In this document: positions 38,170 to 63,821 of the stretch, one piece after another
How positions within the stretch are numbered: the first letter of the stretch is position 1
Layout of the letters: each line of letters starts with the position of its first letter
DNA from: Symmetrospora coprosmae
Lineage: Eukaryota > Basidiomycota > Cystobasidiomycetes > Symmetrosporaceae
Direction: 5' to 3'
DNA: 64,000 nucleotides
NCBI GenBank assembly: GCA_008802785.1
Contig: VUYT01000012.1
Location: 186,001 to 250,000 of the forward strand
Position numbers and translations under genes: made by a program
Notes under the pieces: generated by a model
What the model was told of the DNA's origin: nothing
Seen by the model: only the letters and a program-made list of their open reading frames with translations
Databases searched by the model: none

Positions 38170-38246
<77 letters not shown>

Positions 38247-41200
38247 CAGCCACGACGACCAAGGCCAACAACGACCAGATCGTGACAAAGGCCGCGGACC
38301 AGGCGCTCCTGTCCCAGGTCTTCTCGCAGTACGAGGACAAAAAGTACGCAGCCAGCATCAAGTCGGCCGACCTCCTCCTGAAAAAGTACCCCAACAATGC
38401 CCGTGGGTTGGGCAGGGCACTCTCTGCTGATCTGGAGACGGTGGTGAAACGCTGTGTGCTGATGGGTTGCTCCCTCTTGTGGTGGTGTCTCTTGCGTGCC
38501 TCTTGCTGTACGACCGCGGCTGCTGGCCATCGTCATTCTGCCGCGCACGGACGAGCAGAGACGACGTGCATGAAGGGACTGAGCACCTACAACATGGGCA
38601 AGAGGGAGGAAGGCAGGCATCTGGCCGAAAAGGGACTGGCTCTCGACCCTACGAGCCACGTCTGCTGGCACGTCAATGCCCTCATCTGCCGCGCCGAGCG
38701 CGAGTACGAGCAGGCCCTCGAGTGCTACATCTCTGGATCCAAGATTGAGCCGGTGCGTTTATTAGCGTTACAACCGCACCCTACTCTATGCGCCCTCTGA
38801 CTGACACGGGTCATTCCGCCGACAGAACGACCTCAACATCCTGCGAGACACCATCAACCTCCAGCTCTTCCTCCGCAAGTATGTCGACGCGGCCACGTCC
38901 CGCCTGAATCTTCTCCGCCTCCAGCCGCGCCTGCGCTACAGCTGGACGGCGCTCGCCGTTGCCCGGCACCTGAGCAATGACTATACCGGCGCTATAGAGA
39001 TGCTCTCCACCTACTCGGACATGCTCGAGGACATCCCCGCGCACGACTACGACTTTTCCGAGGTCGTCCTGTACAAGATACAGGTGCAGCTCGAGGCCGG
39101 ACAGCCGCAGAGCGCATACGAGACGCTCGAGAAGGACGGAAAGAGGATTGTCGACCTGCAAAGCAAGAAGGAGGTCAATGCACAGCTCCTCAAGGCGCTC
39201 GGCAAGAGCAAGCAGGCAGAGCTGGCGTATGGAGACCTGCTGCAGGACAACCCAGACAGTAAGGAGTACCTCGTGCAGTACCTTGGCTGCAGGGGAATCG
39301 ATTTGGGTGAGTTTCTGCTCCTCGTATGGTTGCCACTCCTCTCTGAAGCCTGGCTGAATTGTGGCTGGTCCTTCCATACAACAGCCTCGCTGGACGACGC
39401 CAATCGTCAGGACGCCATCGGTGCCCTGAGCGATCTGAGTGACAGGTTCCCGCGTTCGCGTACAATCCGCAGGACCGTCCTCGATGTCGCCGTGGAGGAC
39501 TCCTTCCGCCGGCGCCTTTCCATCTACATCGTCGATGGCCTCACGAAGGGCATTCCGTCCCTGTTTGGCGACCTGAAGCGGCTGCTCGATGACGAGAAGC
39601 GGAGGGCGATTGTGCTGCAGGTCCTGCAGAGCATGAAGGACAACATGGAGAGCGGGCGGACGATCGACGGAGATGACATTGTCAGCGGCAGCAGCAGCAG
39701 CGGGGAGGGGCCAAGCACAGCGCCTCAGGAGGAGGAAGCTCCGACGACGTACATCTGGCTGCTGTACCTCCTCGCCCAGGTCCAGCTGCACCTCCGTTCC
39801 TTCGACGACGCGCTTGCCACGATTCAGCTTGCACTCTCGCACACGCCGGTCCTTCCCGAGCTCTGGATGATCCAGGCGCGCATCCACAAGCGCATGGGCG
39901 ACATCTATGCCGCCGAGGAGAGCATGGCCGCGGCACGCTCTCTGGACGGGCAGGACCGGTTCCTGAACGCCAAGCACGTCAAGTACCTCCTCCGGATCGA
40001 CGAGGTGCAGGAGGCCGAGAAGGTGGCGACACTGTTTATTCGCAAGGACTCGGTCGACGCGCTCACGGACCTCACCGAGATGCAGTGCTTGTGGTTCCTC
40101 CTTGAGGAGGCAGAGAGCTACGCACGGCAGGGCAACCTCGGCATGGCCCTCAAGCGGTACATGACTATCGAGCGGGTCTTCAGCGAGATCTACGAGGACG
40201 AATTCGAATTTCACTCGTACTGCATGCGCAAATTTACCTTGCGGGCCTGCGTCAAGTGCGTATTTCATCTCTAACAGGCTGGAGTGTTCGTCCGCTGACT
40301 TGCCTTCATGCGCTGTCGGTAGCATGGCCCGCTCGAACAACGCTCTGAGGCAGCACCCTGCCTTCATCCGCGCAGCTCGCGGAGCCATCAACATCCTTCT
40401 CCAGCTCGAGGCCAAACCTTACGAGAAACCCTCTGTGAACGGCTCGCACGACGCTTCCGCCAACGGCGACGGCGGCGATGCCCTGAACGAGGAGGAGCGC
40501 CGCAAGGCCGAGAAGAAGGCGAAAAAAGCAGAGGCAAAGGCCAAAGCTGCGGCTGCTGCAGACGACGGCAAGAAGGCTGCCGCGGGCGCAGTGGAGGAGA
40601 TTGCTAAGGAGAAAGAGAACGATGACCCCGCTGGAGAAAAGCTGTGGAGCACAAAGACGCCGCTGAAGGACCTGGAGCCGTTCTTGTCGCATCTGGAGCG
40701 ACTGGGCGAGGACAATGCTCTGGCACAGGAGCTCGTGTTTGAGGTTGCCATGCGGAAGAGTGAGTGTGGGCACTTTCGGTCGATCACCCTGTGATGTTTG
40801 ATGCTGACTGTCTCGCGCGTTGGCAGAGGAATACCTTCGAGCCGTTCGGGCGCTTCAGCGAGCGCACGCCATCTCGCCCGACTCGCCCACCTTGCACCAC
40901 CATATTGTTCGCTTCGCACTTCTCTTCGGTTCACCCTCGTCAGAAAGCACAATCCCTAAGGAGCTCGAAGCGACCCTCAAGGCGGAGCTCGAGCCTCTCA
41001 TCCCTCTATCGGCTGTGTCGCCCCAGGCATTCAGCACAGACTACCTGCAGACGCATCCTGGTTCGGCTGAAGTTATCCTCGGTGCCGCCAGCGCGCAGTG
41101 GGCTATTTCGAAAGACGCGCAAGCGACGGGCGAGCTCCTGTTGCAGATGGCCAAGCCGGAAAATAAGCCGACTCTGCGGGATTTGCGTGCGGCAAAAGCA

Positions 41201-44135: not shown

Positions 44136-47100
44136 ATGTCGTCAAGCGAGTACGAAAGCGATTCGAGCGGCGGAGATGGCAATCACACGTTCAATACCGC
44201 AGAGACCAGCTACGCCTCTGCCAGCACCTCTACCAATGCGCTTCACGAAGCGTCTGCCTCGTCTCATGAGCACGCCCACGACCCTCCCGTAGACCGCCGC
44301 AAGGCAGAGCGAAAGAAGAACGCCAGCACTGAGGAGGGCAAAGCTCAGCGACGCGCAAAGCGCAGCGCCATCATCGAGGAGAAGAAGCGTCTGCTTGCAC
44401 CTCAGATTGCGACCGCCGTCAGAGAAGCCCGCACCATCCGAGTCCTCGGCTCCAGTCTTCCTTCTTCGGTGCCTCCCGACGACGCCACCGACGCGTTCGT
44501 CAAGTACCTGAATCTCGTCCGCGGTGTCAGCTCATCGAAGCGCTACCCTCTCGCGCCCACATCTCCCCATCTCAAATCCATCTTTGATCACCCTGCCTCT
44601 TTTCGCGTCCTCACCATCCTCGCGAAAGAGGGCTACCTCTTCAATCCCTCTGATTCAGAGTACAGCGGCGTACTCGTCCGCCAGGCTGTTCCCAAGGGGA
44701 AGACAAGGTCCAAGAAGGACAAGGAGGCTGAAGAGGAGGATTCAGCCGTTACATTCAAGTTCTACACGCGAGCGACTCCCTCCCTCCCCATCTCGCAGCT
44801 CGTCAACCTTCTCAAAGAGCTGGACACTTTGCGACCGAACCACACCATCTGGACGCAAGTCAATGTAGACCAACTTGCAGAGCTTGCCAAGAGTGGAGAG
44901 ACGACGGCTCGATTGTTCTACCATGGCTATACGGCGTATTCGATCATCGGCCGAGAGTTGGACACGCAGGAAGGAGAAGCAACGCTCGTGGCGCATTGGA
45001 AGGAGTTGACTGGCGAAGACATGGAGGTGTACCACTGGGCGGAGCTCGACAGGGAAGGCGAATCCCGCTACGTCTTCCGAACCGACGAGTCCATCTCGGG
45101 CATTGAGGAAGTCATCGTCGACGCTGCCGGCGGGATCCTGCTCAATCTCAACCAGATCCCGGGCGGTTTCCTGCACCGCATCCTTTATCATCCTGACCTC
45201 GTCTCGGTGCAACGCAAGATAGCCGAACTGCGTACCGGACCCAAGCCTATCGTTCCGGGGCTTCAGACCTCATCACCTGCCGCCTCTTCGGAACCGCTCG
45301 AGTCGCGTCAGCAACGCGTTCGCAATCTCTTCGGAGCGCTTTCCAAGTACTGTCAGCTGCACAGCGATGACTTCTCGAACGTCGTTGCCGAGGGAGAGCT
45401 GCTCCAACGCATCGCGAGCATGGCAGCTGCCCTGGAGCTTGAAGGTGTCAATGTTGTCCGAGCCATTCTCCGCAAGGATATCCCTCGAGAAGCTCTTATC
45501 GCTCTCGCGAAGCTGTATATCGATGCGGAAGTCGGGCGCGGAGCGAGGAACGACAAGTTGGTCGACGAGGAAGCTCAGGGCCTCATCGACCTCTTGACGG
45601 GCTTGATGGAGCACGGCGTCGAGTATGAGGACAGGAGATTCCCCTTCATGGATCTCTGGTGCATCGTCTACCGGCACCCCGACTGGTGGATCGTCGTCTT
45701 CGTCATTGTCTTGGTCTTCTACATTCATATCCTCAAGCCGAAGTACGTCGTCATCGGTGCGGCGAAACTGGCCGGTCTTATCCAGCGGGACATCTTCTCC
45801 AGCATCTTCAAGGAGAACGCGCTTACGAGCCTGCAGCATCAGCTCGACACGTACTTTAGCGGTCAGTCGGAAGGCTTCACCTCATCATTCCTTGCGAACA
45901 TCCTTGAGGAACCCCTGTCCTGTCCGGCAACAACCGCGAGCGAATCAGTTATCAAGGGCAACAGTAAGAAGGCAGTTAAAGCGCGAGAGTTAGCGGAGGC
46001 GGAGGCGGAGGCTCGAGAGCTCCTCTTGACCGTTGTGGTCGAATGGGACGAACTCCCAGTTCCTCGCTACATCACCTGGGTTGGGATCCCGATGGCATCC
46101 CGCCTCGGCCCGCTCCTGACTTCCTTCTATCCTACTGTCGGCGTGCTGGATGGCGGCTTTCATGCCTATCACGCTTGGACCCGACATCTGTCAATGCAGC
46201 TGAGCCAGGCAACGCAGCTCATGGTCGACTTGGTGGAACTCGTCACCAGCGGAATCGAGATGGACGGCACTGAGGATCAGGCTCAGCAAGTCGTTCGCGA
46301 AGTAGAGAGGCTGTCGGTGGAGATTGGCTTGAAGGAAGCCCTCGAATCAATCCGCAAAGAGCTCCTTGACGCGTGCACGCCACTCTGGTCTCTTGCTCGG
46401 CTAGCGGTCGAGCAGCGTAAGGAATTGGACGACTTCGACGAGGACAAATGGGACAATATGTCAGCCCGCATCTCGGCAGCTCACCAGAACGCAACGGCAA
46501 ATGCCATCGTAGCCATCGGAAAGCCGGGATCCCCGGACCGCATCGCTCAAGCGAACCAGCTCGTCCAGGATAATCGCGACGCCATCAATGCGCGCAAGTT
46601 GTCGTCTGTCCATCCGTGCCCGGGCACCGTTGCAGCTGGACCCGGATCCGCTGCCGCCTGGCTGTGGTACGCTCTGCATGTCCGTGCAGGCGCCACGTAC
46701 TTGCGGGCAGCAAACGGCACGACGTTGGCAGGCAAGACTGGACTCGCAGCAGTCCTCACCTTCAAGCAGAAGCAGCTCATCAAGCTCAAGGAGTTCAGGG
46801 AGAAGCAGGCCGACCAGGATGCGGCTCTCCTGACCAAGGCGGAGGCCATCCAGTGGCTCCAGGCGCCGGCGAAGGGTACTGGAGTCAAGAACAACTCTGT
46901 CTTCATCGTCAAGTGCGTTCATTGTCACGCAGTCGCCTTCTGCAAGAACTACGGTGGTTGGCGCGATCGTCTGCGCCATGCATGCCCAGTCGCCGAGGGA
47001 GACAGTGTCGACCTAGATGGAATGGAGAAGGGCGTCAAGGAGCTCGAGGAGGAGGTCTCTCGCGAGGCAAAGGCCCTTGCTCAAGTCAGTGGCAGGCCGG

Positions 47101-47357
47101 TGTCAGACAGGACCAGCTTTGCCGGCAAGCTCGAGAGATTCAGTCCCGACGGCAAGAGCACCTCACGATGGACGACTGTCAAAGACGATGATGCCATCCA
47201 AAGGCACATCTCTGACATCAAGGAGGGTCTGCTCGCGATGCCTGGAAAGTGGAATCCGGCCGAGAACAAGGAGAAGCACGGTCGGCTGGACTACAGGCAC
47301 CTGGACATCTCGGAGAAGGTGACGAACGTCAGCACGATCGCCAGCACGGATGTCTAG
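44136..47357 (+). CDS. Intronless 1073-residue protein of unknown family
   Basis: A single open frame from ATG 44136 to TAG 47357, striking where most genes of this length have several introns. I recognise no family. The N-terminus is Ser/Asp/His-rich and then basic (DRRKAERKKNAST). Residues about 515-530 are strongly hydrophobic (WWIVVFVIVLVFYIHILKPK), one likely membrane segment or buried core. Around residue 925 there is a possible zinc site, KCVHCHAVAFCKNYGGWRDR followed by LRHACP (C-x2-C ... H-A-C), with Trp and Arg spacing somewhat like BED/C2HC fingers. The rest is helical and charged (KELEEEVSREAKALAQVSG). It looks whole. Intronless, orphan and 47 bp from a tRNA gene, it could come from a mobile or virus-derived gene, but no hallmark motif supports that. 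It may equally be a lineage-specific host gene. Confidence 0.75.
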   Translation: MSSSEYESDSSGGDGNHTFNTAETSYASASTSTNALHEASASSHEHAHDPPVDRRKAERKKNASTEEGKAQRRAKRSAIIEEKKRLLAPQIATAVREARTIRVLGSSLPSSVPPDDATDAFVKYLNLVRGVSSSKRYPLAPTSPHLKSIFDHPASFRVLTILAKEGYLFNPSDSEYSGVLVRQAVPKGKTRSKKDKEAEEEDSAVTFKFYTRATPSLPISQLVNLLKELDTLRPNHTIWTQVNVDQLAELAKSGETTARLFYHGYTAYSIIGRELDTQEGEATLVAHWKELTGEDMEVYHWAELDREGESRYVFRTDESISGIEEVIVDAAGGILLNLNQIPGGFLHRILYHPDLVSVQRKIAELRTGPKPIVPGLQTSSPAASSEPLESRQQRVRNLFGALSKYCQLHSDDFSNVVAEGELLQRIASMAAALELEGVNVVRAILRKDIPREALIALAKLYIDAEVGRGARNDKLVDEEAQGLIDLLTGLMEHGVEYEDRRFPFMDLWCIVYRHPDWWIVVFVIVLVFYIHILKPKYVVIGAAKLAGLIQRDIFSSIFKENALTSLQHQLDTYFSGQSEGFTSSFLANILEEPLSCPATTASESVIKGNSKKAVKARELAEAEAEARELLLTVVVEWDELPVPRYITWVGIPMASRLGPLLTSFYPTVGVLDGGFHAYHAWTRHLSMQLSQATQLMVDLVELVTSGIEMDGTEDQAQQVVREVERLSVEIGLKEALESIRKELLDACTPLWSLARLAVEQRKELDDFDEDKWDNMSARISAAHQNATANAIVAIGKPGSPDRIAQANQLVQDNRDAINARKLSSVHPCPGTVAAGPGSAAAWLWYALHVRAGATYLRAANGTTLAGKTGLAAVLTFKQKQLIKLKEFREKQADQDAALLTKAEAIQWLQAPAKGTGVKNNSVFIVKCVHCHAVAFCKNYGGWRDRLRHACPVAEGDSVDLDGMEKGVKELEEEVSREAKALAQVSGRPVSDRTSFAGKLERFSPDGKSTSRWTTVKDDDAIQRHISDIKEGLLAMPGKWNPAENKEKHGRLDYRHLDISEKVTNVSTIASTDV

Positions 47358-47419
47358 ATGTGACAACATATACGTTACTTTTTCTTCGGCTCCCATCCGA
47401 AAATGCCTGGTTAACTCAG

Positions 47420-47485
47420 GTGAGCAACCACACCCACTCTCGCCAACAGCCAGAACCGGACACTAACAGCACACCTTCTCTACAG
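47420..47485 (+). other. tRNA intron 1 (D-loop, after position 15), mRNA type
   Basis: 66 nt. Donor GTGAGC, branch-site match CACTAAC at 47461-47467 with its A 19 nt from the end, then a pyrimidine tract (CACCTTCTCTACAG). These are the signals of the protein-gene introns in this window. Its removal joins CTCAG to TCGGTAG, rebuilding a standard D-loop. Confidence 0.88.
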
Positions 47486-47507
47486 TCGGTAGAGTATCTG
47501 ACTCTTA

Positions 47508-47528
47508 CTCGTTTCACAAAGCGGCGTG
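47508..47528 (+). other. tRNA intron 2 (canonical, position 37/38)
   Basis: 21 nt between A37 and A38, the standard site of eukaryotic nuclear tRNA introns. It has no GT...AG ends. It contains AAG (47519-47521), which can pair with anticodon CTT, the usual anticodon-intron helix used by the tRNA splicing endonuclease. Confidence 0.9.
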
Positions 47529-47542
47529 ATCAGATTGTCGTG

Positions 47543-47614
47543 GTTAGTCCCCTCCTCCTGCGGCTCCTCCCTATGCGACCTTCATCTGACCAAGCTCCTC
47601 TTCCAACCCATCAG
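47543..47614 (+). other. tRNA intron 3 (T-stem, after position 51), mRNA type
   Basis: 72 nt. Donor GTTAGT, branch-site match CTGAC at 47586-47590 with its A 25 nt from the end, a C/T-rich tract and acceptor CATCAG. Removal rebuilds a five-pair T-stem. The intron ends immediately before position 52, the first base of the B box. Confidence 0.88.
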
Positions 47615-47640
47615 GGTTCGAGCCCCACATCGGGCTTCTC

Positions 47641-47644
47641 TTTT
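47641..47644 (+). terminator. Short T-run, likely RNA polymerase III terminator
   Basis: TTTT starts four bases after the tRNA discriminator (CTTCTCTTTTG). Four Ts is the minimum for Pol III in many eukaryotes. Confidence 0.65.
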
Positions 47645-48452
47645 GCTCTGGACCTATACGAGCTCTCTTTTGCTTCGCTGGGCTGGGCTGTCGTACACGC
47701 TCCCGGTGGCGCTGGCAAGGTCCCCGCATTGTCAGCCTCCCGGAGCCCAACGAGATAGCTTTTTACCCTTACAAAGCTGCAGGTGTACTCTCCTGCACTG
47801 CACGCACCTGAGGGTACCACTTTATCGACAAAGTGACTACTCCTGCCCGAGATCTTCCTCCGTTCATGCAACCCCTCACTTTTGGCTACATCCAGGCACA
47901 GGGCTCGGTTCAGCTAGTTTTTCGCATGTAACAAGACACAGTTGTGTTCTCTAGTGCCCTGTGAACACACTCGAATGCTAATATTCGATTTATGACTCTC
48001 TACGACGGAGATCTTCCTGTACCAAGCCGGGCTTCCTGCGGAACCGTCTCCGCAGTTCGCGCTTAGACGACAGGCTGTCCATATCGCTTTGCCTAAAATT
48101 TATTGGGCATGCTTCAGTCTACATCACTCTCAGATTCCGAATCACGCAATATTCGCAGTTATATCACACCGCAGTCCCACCTGGCCTTCGCCACAAAGAT
48201 GTCAACCGCGTCTCGCTAGGATTGCGAGCAAGCGCACACAGCATCCGATTCCTGGAACGCACAACACCGAATTCCCTATCTGACGGTGTAGTACGCGACA
48301 TTCGTGAGCGTGGGTCCAGCTCAGTCTAGGGCGCGATCTGAGGAGTCTGGCCTTTAAGGCGCCGAGAGGACCTCCCGAGCGAGTCACCTTTCTGCTATTG
48401 CTCGTAAGTTGCATGTACACATGGCAGCGGAACTCCTTCTATTTAACTTCTG
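47645..48452. other. 0.8-kb gap after the tRNA
   Basis: No gene, second tRNA or repeat found. Slightly more A/T-rich than its surroundings. The right end is the 3' region of the VPS9-domain gene. Confidence 0.45.
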
Positions 48453-60518: not shown

Positions 60519-61739
60519 CTAAAGCGGGTCTCCGTCGAGTAGCGCCACAGGAAAGAGTTCCAGCAGGTCCGGCCAGTAAGCTGCTTTGGGCTCTCCCTCT
60601 TTCCAGCCCTTCCGCTTCTTCAATCCCGCCATGGCATCTCGGATGAGGCGCTGCACTTCGGCACGCAATGGCCAAAGTCCCTCTTCCCATCCCTCTCGGA
60701 CGTATTCCCTCATCATCTCGGTGACATGCAGAACTGGCGTTTCGGTGAGATTTGGAAGCCAGCCGGGGGATGCAAGGCGTAGCAAGATCTCTAGGTATCC
60801 ACTTGGATCTAGGTCGGTGAGCTCGAGAGTGGATAGCGTGGAGGGAAGCAGCTCGACGGGCAGATGCATGTCCTCGAGGTCGATGGAAAACGTGAGGTGC
60901 TCGAGCTTGGTGAACCCGCCGAAGAAGGCATGAAGACCTTCCCCGCTGACCAAGTCGTACTGATTGTCTGCACTCATAGTGATTGTCGTGACCGTATCGT
61001 GTAGAGTGAGCGGTCTAGACTGCATGTGCTGGAAGGAAACGATATCTTGGAGGCTGAAGGTCTTGAGACACTTCAGAGGCTCGAGAAGCTCCTTCCAATG
61101 CTTGGCCTTGAACTTCCACCAGTACAGGAGCCGAAGCTCCTGTAAGGTAGCTCCGACGCTCCCAAGCAAATCGAGGCCTGCTTTCCAGAAGATGCCCTGT
61201 CCTTCGCAGCCATTCAAGTCCAGGTGTAATCTGGTGAGAGCGCGACATCCGCTCAGAAGGCATTGGAGTTCGAATACGTTGAAGGCGTTCACGGTCAGTT
61301 CCCGTACGAGGGTACACGTGGCGGCGTCCCGGCAGAGGAGGCTGTAGAGGACGGCCTGCCTGTGGCCGTATTCCGATTCTGCCGATACCACGCTGATCTC
61401 CCCATCTTCATCGCGAGACTCGTCGCCTATGTCGAGATCCAACTTGCGGTAGAGGATCGGCTGTGTGATGGATCGCCAGAGCTTGCAGACCTGCCCAATC
61501 GCTGCAAGATCTGGGAGTTCTTCGGGGTCGAGATGGCCGATGACCATCTCCGCAATCTCATGGATGGCCAGCACCCGTGCTGCAGTGCTGAGGAAGGGAA
61601 AGGGCTGGGGAGGAGGCCGTCCTTTCTTCCTGTTGGTGCAGACGCGTCGAGCTTTGTGGGGCTTTGTCCCGTGTGAAGTGCTCCGGGTGGATGCAGCCGC
61701 GGAGGAAGATGAGGGAGCGGAGGTACGAAGCTGGGACAT
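60519..61739 (-). CDS. F-box/LRR-type protein, paralogue 1
   Basis: Intronless, 406 residues, ATG at 61739. After a basic Ser/Thr-rich start the F-box-like segment reads LSTAARVLAIHEIAEMVIGH, LDPEELPDLAAIGQVCKLWR, SITQPILYRKLDLDIGDESR. Leu-rich repeats follow (LVRELTVNAFNVFELQCLLS, GCRALTRLHLDLNG, LGSVGATLQELRLLYWWKFK, GFTKLEHLTFSIDLED). It ends with KRKGWKEGEPKAAYWPDLLE. A likely SCF substrate adaptor; substrate unknown. Closely related in order and spacing to the next gene, about 830 bp upstream and in the same direction. Confidence 0.85.
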   Translation of the reverse strand: MSQLRTSAPSSSSAAASTRSTSHGTKPHKARRVCTNRKKGRPPPQPFPFLSTAARVLAIHEIAEMVIGHLDPEELPDLAAIGQVCKLWRSITQPILYRKLDLDIGDESRDEDGEISVVSAESEYGHRQAVLYSLLCRDAATCTLVRELTVNAFNVFELQCLLSGCRALTRLHLDLNGCEGQGIFWKAGLDLLGSVGATLQELRLLYWWKFKAKHWKELLEPLKCLKTFSLQDIVSFQHMQSRPLTLHDTVTTITMSADNQYDLVSGEGLHAFFGGFTKLEHLTFSIDLEDMHLPVELLPSTLSTLELTDLDPSGYLEILLRLASPGWLPNLTETPVLHVTEMMREYVREGWEEGLWPLRAEVQRLIRDAMAGLKKRKGWKEGEPKAAYWPDLLELFPVALLDGDPL

Positions 61740-62570: not shown

Positions 62571-63821
62571 CTACGCTTCCTCCTCTTCCAAGTCGCCCGC
62601 GTCCGCCTGATCCCCCCAGTCCCCCTGATCCTCCTCGTCCTCCTCCGACTCCCACTCCTCGAAGAGATTCAGCAGATCCGGCCAGAACTCGGCAATATCG
62701 TCTCGCGCTTGCCATCCCTCCCGCTTCCTCAGTCCTTCTGATGCATCCTCAATGAGGCGCCTCACGCCACCGCGCGCTGGCAGATTCGCGTTCCCGTATG
62801 CGTATGATCCATCTATTATATCAGACATGATGCTGTCCGTTCGGAGGATCGGAGTTTCGCTGAGAGCCGCAAGCCATGCGGGGGATGCGAGGCGGCGGAG
62901 AATCTCGAGGTGCCCGAAGATGTCCGAGTGAGAGAGATCTAGAGTCTGTAGAGTCTGAGGCAGAGCTTCGATGGGGAATAGGTCACCATTGAGGGTGATT
63001 GAAAAGGTGAGATGTTCCAGGCTCGTGAAAGCGCTGAGGAATGCGGCGAGACCATCCGCTCGGGACCACTCGCTGTAGCTTCTCTCTTCGCGTAAGATGA
63101 GCGTCGTGACTGTCCTGTGCAGCTGAAGGGCTTCAGACTTCATGTACATGAAGAAGTGCATGCCTTCCAGCGTGAAGCGTTCCAGACGCTCAAGGGGTTT
63201 CAGGAGCTCCTCCCATACAGCCGAATCGACGTCCCACCAGGACGACAGGGTGAGTTCCTGCAATGTTGTCCCGACACCTTCGAGCAGACTGACGCCTGCC
63301 TCGCAGTGCAGACCTTCGCCAAAGGGGCCTTCGCACGAGAGGTGGAGTATGCTGAGGGCGTTGCAGCCGTTCAGGAGGCCCGGTAGTTCAGCACCCTCAA
63401 AGTATTTTACCGTGAGGTGCTGGACGAGTCTGCGCTTGCGCACTTGACGGCAGAGCAGGCGGTAAAGTCGGGCCTGCTTGTATCCATGTGGCAGTTGCCA
63501 ACGCGTGGGACGGACTTCACCTCCCTCGTCGCGTGATTCTAGTCCTATCTCGAGGTCTATATCGCGATAGAGAATCGGCTGGGAGATGGCCTGCCATAGC
63601 CTGCACACCTGCCCAGCCATCGCGATTCTCCGCTTGCGAGCCGGATTAAGGTAGCCGATGACCATCTCTGCGATCTCGGGGATGGCCAGCACGCGTGCGG
63701 CTGTGCTGAGAACGGAGGAGGATTGTGCAGATGAGCGACGTCTCTTGCTCTTTGCACGGATGCGTCGACCCTTCGACTGTGGCTGAGTCTCGGTCGGGTC
63801 CGCATGCTGAGCTGGGTTCAT
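62571..63821 (-). CDS. F-box/LRR-type protein, paralogue 2
   Basis: Intronless, 416 residues, ATG at 63821. Basic start (KGRRIRAKSKRRRSSAQSSS), then VLSTAARVLAIPEIAEMVIG, YLNPARKRRIAMAGQVCRLW, QAISQPILYRDIDLEIGLES. Repeats: LVQHLTVKYFEGAELPGLLN, GCNALSILHLSCEGP, LEGVGTTLQELTLSSWWDVD, AFTSLEHLTFSITLNGD. It ends in a run of Glu, Asp and Gln (EEWESEEDEEDQGDWGDQAD) that paralogue 1 lacks. Same domain order and many identical short motifs as paralogue 1, so a tandem duplication. Confidence 0.85.
   Translation of the reverse strand: MNPAQHADPTETQPQSKGRRIRAKSKRRRSSAQSSSVLSTAARVLAIPEIAEMVIGYLNPARKRRIAMAGQVCRLWQAISQPILYRDIDLEIGLESRDEGGEVRPTRWQLPHGYKQARLYRLLCRQVRKRRLVQHLTVKYFEGAELPGLLNGCNALSILHLSCEGPFGEGLHCEAGVSLLEGVGTTLQELTLSSWWDVDSAVWEELLKPLERLERFTLEGMHFFMYMKSEALQLHRTVTTLILREERSYSEWSRADGLAAFLSAFTSLEHLTFSITLNGDLFPIEALPQTLQTLDLSHSDIFGHLEILRRLASPAWLAALSETPILRTDSIMSDIIDGSYAYGNANLPARGGVRRLIEDASEGLRKREGWQARDDIAEFWPDLLNLFEEWESEEDEEDQGDWGDQADAGDLEEEEA

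Follow-up and report, generated by a model that had tools for sequence, protein, structure and literature searches.

A predicted nuclear tRNA-Lys(CUU) gene in four exons, with introns of two classes, in the basidiomycete Symmetrospora coprosmae

The DNA analysed here is a stretch of 64,000 nucleotides of Symmetrospora coprosmae (assembly GCA_008802785.1, contig VUYT01000012.1, positions 186,001 to 250,000 of the forward strand), hereafter the window. At 47405-47636 of the window lie four tRNA exons of 15, 22, 14 and 22 nt (73 nt in all), separated by gaps of 66, 21 and 72 nt. The boundaries of the locus given in the original prediction are exact to the base, and the three sites at which it placed introns, 15/16, 37/38 and 51/52 in tRNA numbering, are borne out. 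The features of the locus are as follows.

47369..47372, + strand: TATA motif 36 nt 5' of the tRNA, a possible upstream Pol III element, although a 4-base motif is weak evidence
47405..47419, + strand: exon 1, 15 nt, tRNA positions 1-15
47412..47419, + strand: first 8 nt of the A box, which is split by intron 1, the remainder lying in exon 2
47420..47485, + strand: intron 1, 66 nt, site 15/16, cag/GTGAGC at the donor, CTAAC at -23, CTACAG/tc at the acceptor
47486..47507, + strand: exon 2, 22 nt, tRNA positions 16-37, including the anticodon CTT
47508..47528, + strand: intron 2, 21 nt, site 37/38, with 3/4 central-helix pairs in its best register
47529..47542, + strand: exon 3, 14 nt, tRNA positions 38-51
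47543..47614, + strand: intron 3, 72 nt, site 51/52, gtg/GTTAGT at the donor, CTGAC at -29, CATCAG/gg at the acceptor
47615..47636, + strand: exon 4, 22 nt, tRNA positions 52-73
47615..47625, + strand: B box GGTTCGAGCCC, an exact match, with intron 3 ending immediately 5' of it
47641..47644, + strand: TTTT, a Pol III-type terminator 4 nt past the tRNA 3' end

Elsewhere in the window, two adjacent F-box-like genes (60519-61739 and 62571-63821, both on the - strand) share 49% identity over 376 aligned positions and represent a local duplication. A perfect 6-bp repeat of 12.7 copies (38172-38247), whose frame reads alternating Ala-Thr, lies near the start of the gene for a NatA auxiliary subunit (Naa15-like), and a further repeat (2093-2163) encodes a His-Ser-rich stretch of a cation-efflux (zinc transporter-like) gene. 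The GC content of the window, the size of its introns and their motifs suggest a GC-rich fungus, probably a basidiomycete; matches to Naa15 in the PDB do not narrow the lineage. Viral contigs scanned for the tRNA-Lys exon patterns, and likewise for relatives of the gene encoding the NatA subunit, gave nothing usable, and a scan for bacterial-type promoters and terminators was uninformative for a eukaryote.

When the segments 47420-47485, 47508-47528 and 47543-47614 are cut out, the joined 73-nt product is called as tRNA-Lys(CTT) by ARAGORN, with standard pairs at 21 of 21 stem positions (two of them G-U) and all 17 tested conserved positions retained; the claim that three excisions leave a complete tRNA is thereby upheld. 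One detail of that claim has to be corrected: the pair G15-C48 was said to span introns 1 and 3, whereas C48 (47539) precedes intron 3, so that the introns enclosed between it and G15 (47419) are 1 and 2. Counting against the gene, the structure of lowest energy predicted for the bare 73-mer lies 1.2 kcal/mol below the cloverleaf (-23.7 versus -22.5 kcal/mol). Compared with human tRNA-Lys-CTT, the spliced product differs at 13 of 73 positions; six stem pairs are altered and all six remain paired, four of them through changes on both sides, as in A10-U25 here and G10-C25 there. Identity to S. cerevisiae tK(CUU) amounts to 54/73 positions. AAG, the codon read by CUU, makes up 164 of the 197 lysine codons counted in four of the window's nine gene models; since it is the main lysine codon there, a CUU tRNA matters in this genomic setting. 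From its sequence, the structure is read as that of a nuclear tRNA-Lys(CUU) gene made up of four exons, with introns of two classes, which supports the four-exon arrangement originally put forward, with two introns at sites unusual for nuclear tRNA introns.

The searches applied here pass over this gene, as had been anticipated. No tRNA gene was reported by ARAGORN in the unspliced window (intron setting unstated), nor in the 401 nt around the locus, likewise unspliced, when introns were permitted. Rfam likewise found no tRNA in the unspliced window at the gathering level, and at E<=10 its two matches within 47300-47750 were not tRNAs. Removal of introns 1 and 3 alone is enough for ARAGORN to call a tRNA-Lys with a 21-nt insert.

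Because a free choice of cuts could build a tRNA from anything, the intron rules were fixed first for a set of blind screens (donor GT[AGT]NG, branch CTNAY, acceptor YAG, length 40-110 nt), after which all single introns and all nearby pairs were excised on both strands and a tRNA was sought in each product. Judged by ARAGORN, 532 single and 195 paired excisions of the window yielded two matches, both variants of this locus, one of them a nested form with its acceptor at 47492; relaxed rules additionally gave a variant with a donor at 47540. The corresponding controls produced a match in 0/4 shuffled windows and in 4/200 dinucleotide-shuffled ones, and in 3/20 under relaxed intron rules. The 4/200 figure marks ARAGORN as a loose judge, and a stricter score was therefore written in which some conserved positions are required and stem pairs are then counted out of 21. 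Under this score only the full form is listed for 47405-47636, at 21/21, with the 21-nt insert and the anticodon CTT recovered unprompted, and the next best candidate in the window reaches 11. In a fresh set of 200 shuffled windows the best score was 17 (1/200), and 165/200 fell within 9-17, so that only scores well above 17 are meaningful.

The exons leave intron 1 free to lie in any of four registers and intron 3 in any of three, of which one each is GT-AG, and in that sole register both introns also pass the donor, branch, acceptor and length rules. A crude estimate, based on how densely introns of this kind occur in the window, puts the joint chance of both fitting at ~4e-8. That random sequence had merely been parsed as a tRNA is an idea fed by the many parses that three free cuts allow and by the occasional ARAGORN match in shuffled DNA; set against the 21/21 obtained with fixed rules, and a maximum of 17 in separate shuffles, it was already very unlikely after the strict screen, and we regard its probability as negligible.

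The original prediction left the class of introns 1 and 3 unnamed; their sequence points to the spliceosomal class. Both have branch motifs at a distance from the acceptor that falls within the range of 6-36 nt given, together with the fungal consensus RCTRAY, in PMC5832005. The branch site of intron 1 (A before CTAAC) fits this consensus fully, and that of intron 3 has T, not a purine, before CTGAC. For comparison, coding exons were chained in nine gene regions of the window with introns picked by motif, which gave 19 candidate mRNA introns in seven regions and none in the other two. Joining of exons raised the Pfam score relative to the single open reading frame from 352 to 470 bits for the NatA auxiliary subunit, with the whole model covered, from 63 to 160 bits for Paf1, and from 18 to 35 bits for a Vps62-like protein (first 367 of 565 residues). 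Five of the mRNA introns lie inside these Pfam matches, two of them near the edge of the match (the third NatA intron and the first Vps62 intron), and have lengths of 56-94 nt, GTGNGT donors and CTGAC at -20 to -31; the remaining candidates, outside the matches, are based on motif and frame alone.

With their 66 and 72 nt, introns 1 and 3 match the mRNA introns of the window in length and anatomy, with small departures at the donors, where intron 1 ends in C (GTGAGC) and intron 3 has T at +3, although the agreement in motifs is partly built in, because the candidate mRNA introns were themselves chosen by motif. Ends, branch motifs and lengths point to U2-type spliceosomal introns, which would be removed as lariats by the spliceosome. 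Folding of the full precursor speaks on the other side, as it is predicted to leave the donors and branch motifs of both introns largely paired (mean 0.75-0.88). An introner-like origin was considered and rejected, as no significant copy of intron 1 or 3 occurs elsewhere in the window (best E 0.36, for intron 3).

Intron 2 is of another kind. Its ends are not GT-AG, it occupies site 37/38, and G at intron position -3 can pair with C32, as in the A-I pair described for these two positions in PMC10539383. In a test of the central helix over four registers for each intron, intron 2 formed 2-3 of 4 pairs, intron 1 formed 0-1 of 4 and intron 3 formed 0-3 of 4; the best register of intron 2 has 3/4 pairs, one of them G-U, and intron 3 reaches an equal count, so that the test sets intron 1 apart from intron 2 and fails to do so for intron 3. 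By position and ends, intron 2 is classed as an ordinary endonuclease-type tRNA intron. The original prediction had contrasted the introns of this gene with the endonuclease-cleaved introns of red algal and archaeal tRNAs, a contrast that holds for introns 1 and 3 and fails for intron 2.

Multi-intron tRNAs in which every intron is cut by the tRNA splicing endonuclease do exist in the red alga Cyanidioschyzon merolae and in archaea (PMC4090602, PMC3978253, PMC4033280), and the helix count of intron 3 in one of its four registers, as high as that of intron 2, would be in keeping with such processing of all three introns here. Such uniform cleavage would leave unaccounted for the GT-AG ends, branch motifs and mRNA-intron lengths that introns 1 and 3 show at the sole fitting register, as well as the central helix of intron 1 with at most 1/4 pairs, and cleavage by the endonuclease of yeast is described as confined to 37/38 (PMC4033280). 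We consider it highly improbable.

The signals around the gene bear on which polymerase transcribes it. Among the elements of a Pol III type 2 promoter, a B box and a T-run terminator are present and a contiguous A box is absent. The B box is distinctive within the window, as GGTTCGANNCC has its sole exact match on both strands at 47615..47625 and 11 matches at <=1 mismatch. Scored against the consensus, the A box matches at 11/12 positions in its spliced form; in the DNA, the GTGA of intron 1 extends the first part to 10/12 matches, a level also reached by 2.2% of + strand sites in the window. As the A box is split by intron 1 and the distance from A to B box is ~200 bp, transcription by Pol III may be weakened. 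A run of five T (47379-47383) lies between the TATA motif and the tRNA, and would be harmless if transcription started downstream of it and a barrier to Pol III if it started upstream. No four-T run was found within 47405-47640; as a sign of Pol III selection this absence was discarded as weak, TTTT occurring in just 2 of the 19 candidate mRNA introns.

A transcript of Pol II is the main rival explanation. In that case, the tRNA exons would be transcribed along with the upstream gene, at the 3' end of its mRNA, or on a Pol II transcript of their own, and would be spliced co-transcriptionally, after which the tRNA would be excised or would merely persist as a tRNA-like element of the 3'UTR. The arrangement lends itself to this, because an open reading frame on the same strand (44136-47357, 1073 residues, with no Pfam match at E 0.001 and no intron picked by exon chaining) ends 47 nt before the tRNA, Pol II transcripts are the normal home of spliceosomal introns, and the A box is interrupted. 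Yet a UTR element would need neither a tRNA-type intron 2 nor a full tRNA core, and the B box is exact with TTTT directly past the 3' end, which leaves the Pol II route, in our estimation, fairly unlikely. The sequence elements favour the reading that the gene is probably transcribed by RNA polymerase III.

Our preferred reading, to which we assign a probability of about 0.72, is that of a nuclear tRNA-Lys(CUU) gene that has kept the 21-nt intron of its anticodon loop and acquired two introns of the U2 type, at 15/16 within the A box and at 51/52 immediately 5' of the B box, and whose maturation would involve both the spliceosome and the endonuclease. Transcription, probably by RNA polymerase III, would run from the TATA motif, split A box and B box to the TTTT; introns 1 and 3 would be removed by the spliceosome, as in the U6 precursor; the tRNA body would fold after this step; intron 2 would then be removed by the tRNA splicing endonuclease and ligase; and end processing with CCA addition would yield a tRNA-Lys reading AAG. 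At its energy minimum the full precursor does not take the form of a cloverleaf; the 94-nt intermediate without introns 1 and 3 does, with an anticodon arm extended by intron 2, which would make it a suitable substrate of the tRNA endonuclease. Since the predicted cloverleaf appears only once introns 1 and 3 are gone, folding suggests an order in which the spliceosome would act first and the endonuclease second.

Other CUU genes may exist beside this one, or the locus may be silent. Eukaryotic tRNA genes with short insertions in the D or T arm, mostly one among many synonymous genes, are usually deemed pseudogenes according to PMC4090602, and a disused tRNA copy that acquired introns would leave a relic of this general appearance. 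A relic would be expected to fit poorly with what is seen, as all tested pairs and conserved positions are intact, introns 1 and 3 are still spliceable by motif, and the B box and terminator are preserved. Nothing tested in the tRNA, its introns, the B box or the terminator appears decayed, which argues that the gene is used, although the changes relative to the human tRNA may be older than the introns, and makes the relic an unlikely explanation.

Nuclear tRNA introns have been treated as a single class, cut by the endonuclease, located at 37/38 and present once per eukaryotic gene. If the preferred reading of a spliceosome-dependent tRNA-Lys(CUU) gene is true, the spliceosome can also serve in the making of tRNAs, and tRNA supply would be tied to the state of the spliceosome. 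It would also suggest that counts of tRNA genes in intron-rich fungi are too low, because finders are blind to such genes. A wider proposition, which we hold to be possible though doubtful, is that this fungus belongs to a lineage in which some tRNA genes have come to require the spliceosome; two unrelated splicing machines would mature these tRNAs in a fixed order, and the genes would be invisible to the tRNA finders applied here. Under the same proposition, the Pol III start would have adapted to the split A box, with the donor GTGA substituting for part of it, or would have moved to the upstream TATA. Were there no other gene for tRNA-Lys(CUU), AAG codons could then be translated only with the help of the spliceosome.

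Among known tRNA introns, the canonical eukaryotic intron at 37/38 is the counterpart of intron 2, and the locus differs from the canonical arrangement in having two more introns of another class. One intron has been described as the limit for a eukaryotic tRNA gene (PMC8450103); exceptions come from C. merolae and from nucleomorphs, where the introns of the multi-intron tRNAs of Guillardia are excised by a route that these sources call unknown (PMC4090602, PMC3978253, PMC4033280). The multi-intron tRNAs of C. merolae, cryptophyte nucleomorphs and archaea resemble the present gene in that their introns occupy non-canonical sites, including the D and T arms, with up to three per gene. The type of intron differs, as those of the Guillardia nucleomorph are described as 3-24 nt long, in contrast to the GT-AG introns of 66 and 72 nt here, and those of C. 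merolae and archaea as bulge-helix-bulge structures cut by the endonuclease, in contrast to the GT-AG introns 1 and 3. Among the matches listed in our search of the open-access literature, none described a tRNA gene with spliceosomal introns.

Closer likenesses come from other structured RNAs. Fungal U3 snoRNA genes carry introns of the spliceosomal class, to which introns 1 and 3 of the tRNA locus are assigned. The introns of these snoRNA genes lie mostly near the 5' end, and the genes are not known to contain an endonuclease intron; U6 snRNA genes, which likewise do not encode a tRNA, are not known to have an additional intron of the endonuclease type. Fungal rRNA genes differ from the locus in that they encode long rRNAs made by Pol I. 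As of 2017, U3 snoRNA and U6 snRNA were described as the sole small structured RNAs then known to be often interrupted by introns (PMC5832005). In fungal U3 genes, introns were found in 138 of 310, nearly all of them GT-AG, with two introns in four genes and an RCTRAC branch site in 129 of the 138 (PMC5832005). The U6 snRNA genes of S. pombe and other fungi resemble the locus as sources of a short structured Pol III RNA from which an mRNA-type intron is spliced out, and in S. pombe Lsm2-8 is described as binding the intron-containing U6 precursors, whose splicing follows the processing of their 3' end (PMC10484740). Fungal nuclear rRNA genes offer a further parallel, in that an RNA of the translation machinery other than mRNA has spliceosomal introns (PMC11782384). 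Introns of the mRNA type in small structured RNAs are thus a known kind, and what would appear to be new here is their host, a tRNA, and the use of two splicing machines on a single tRNA.
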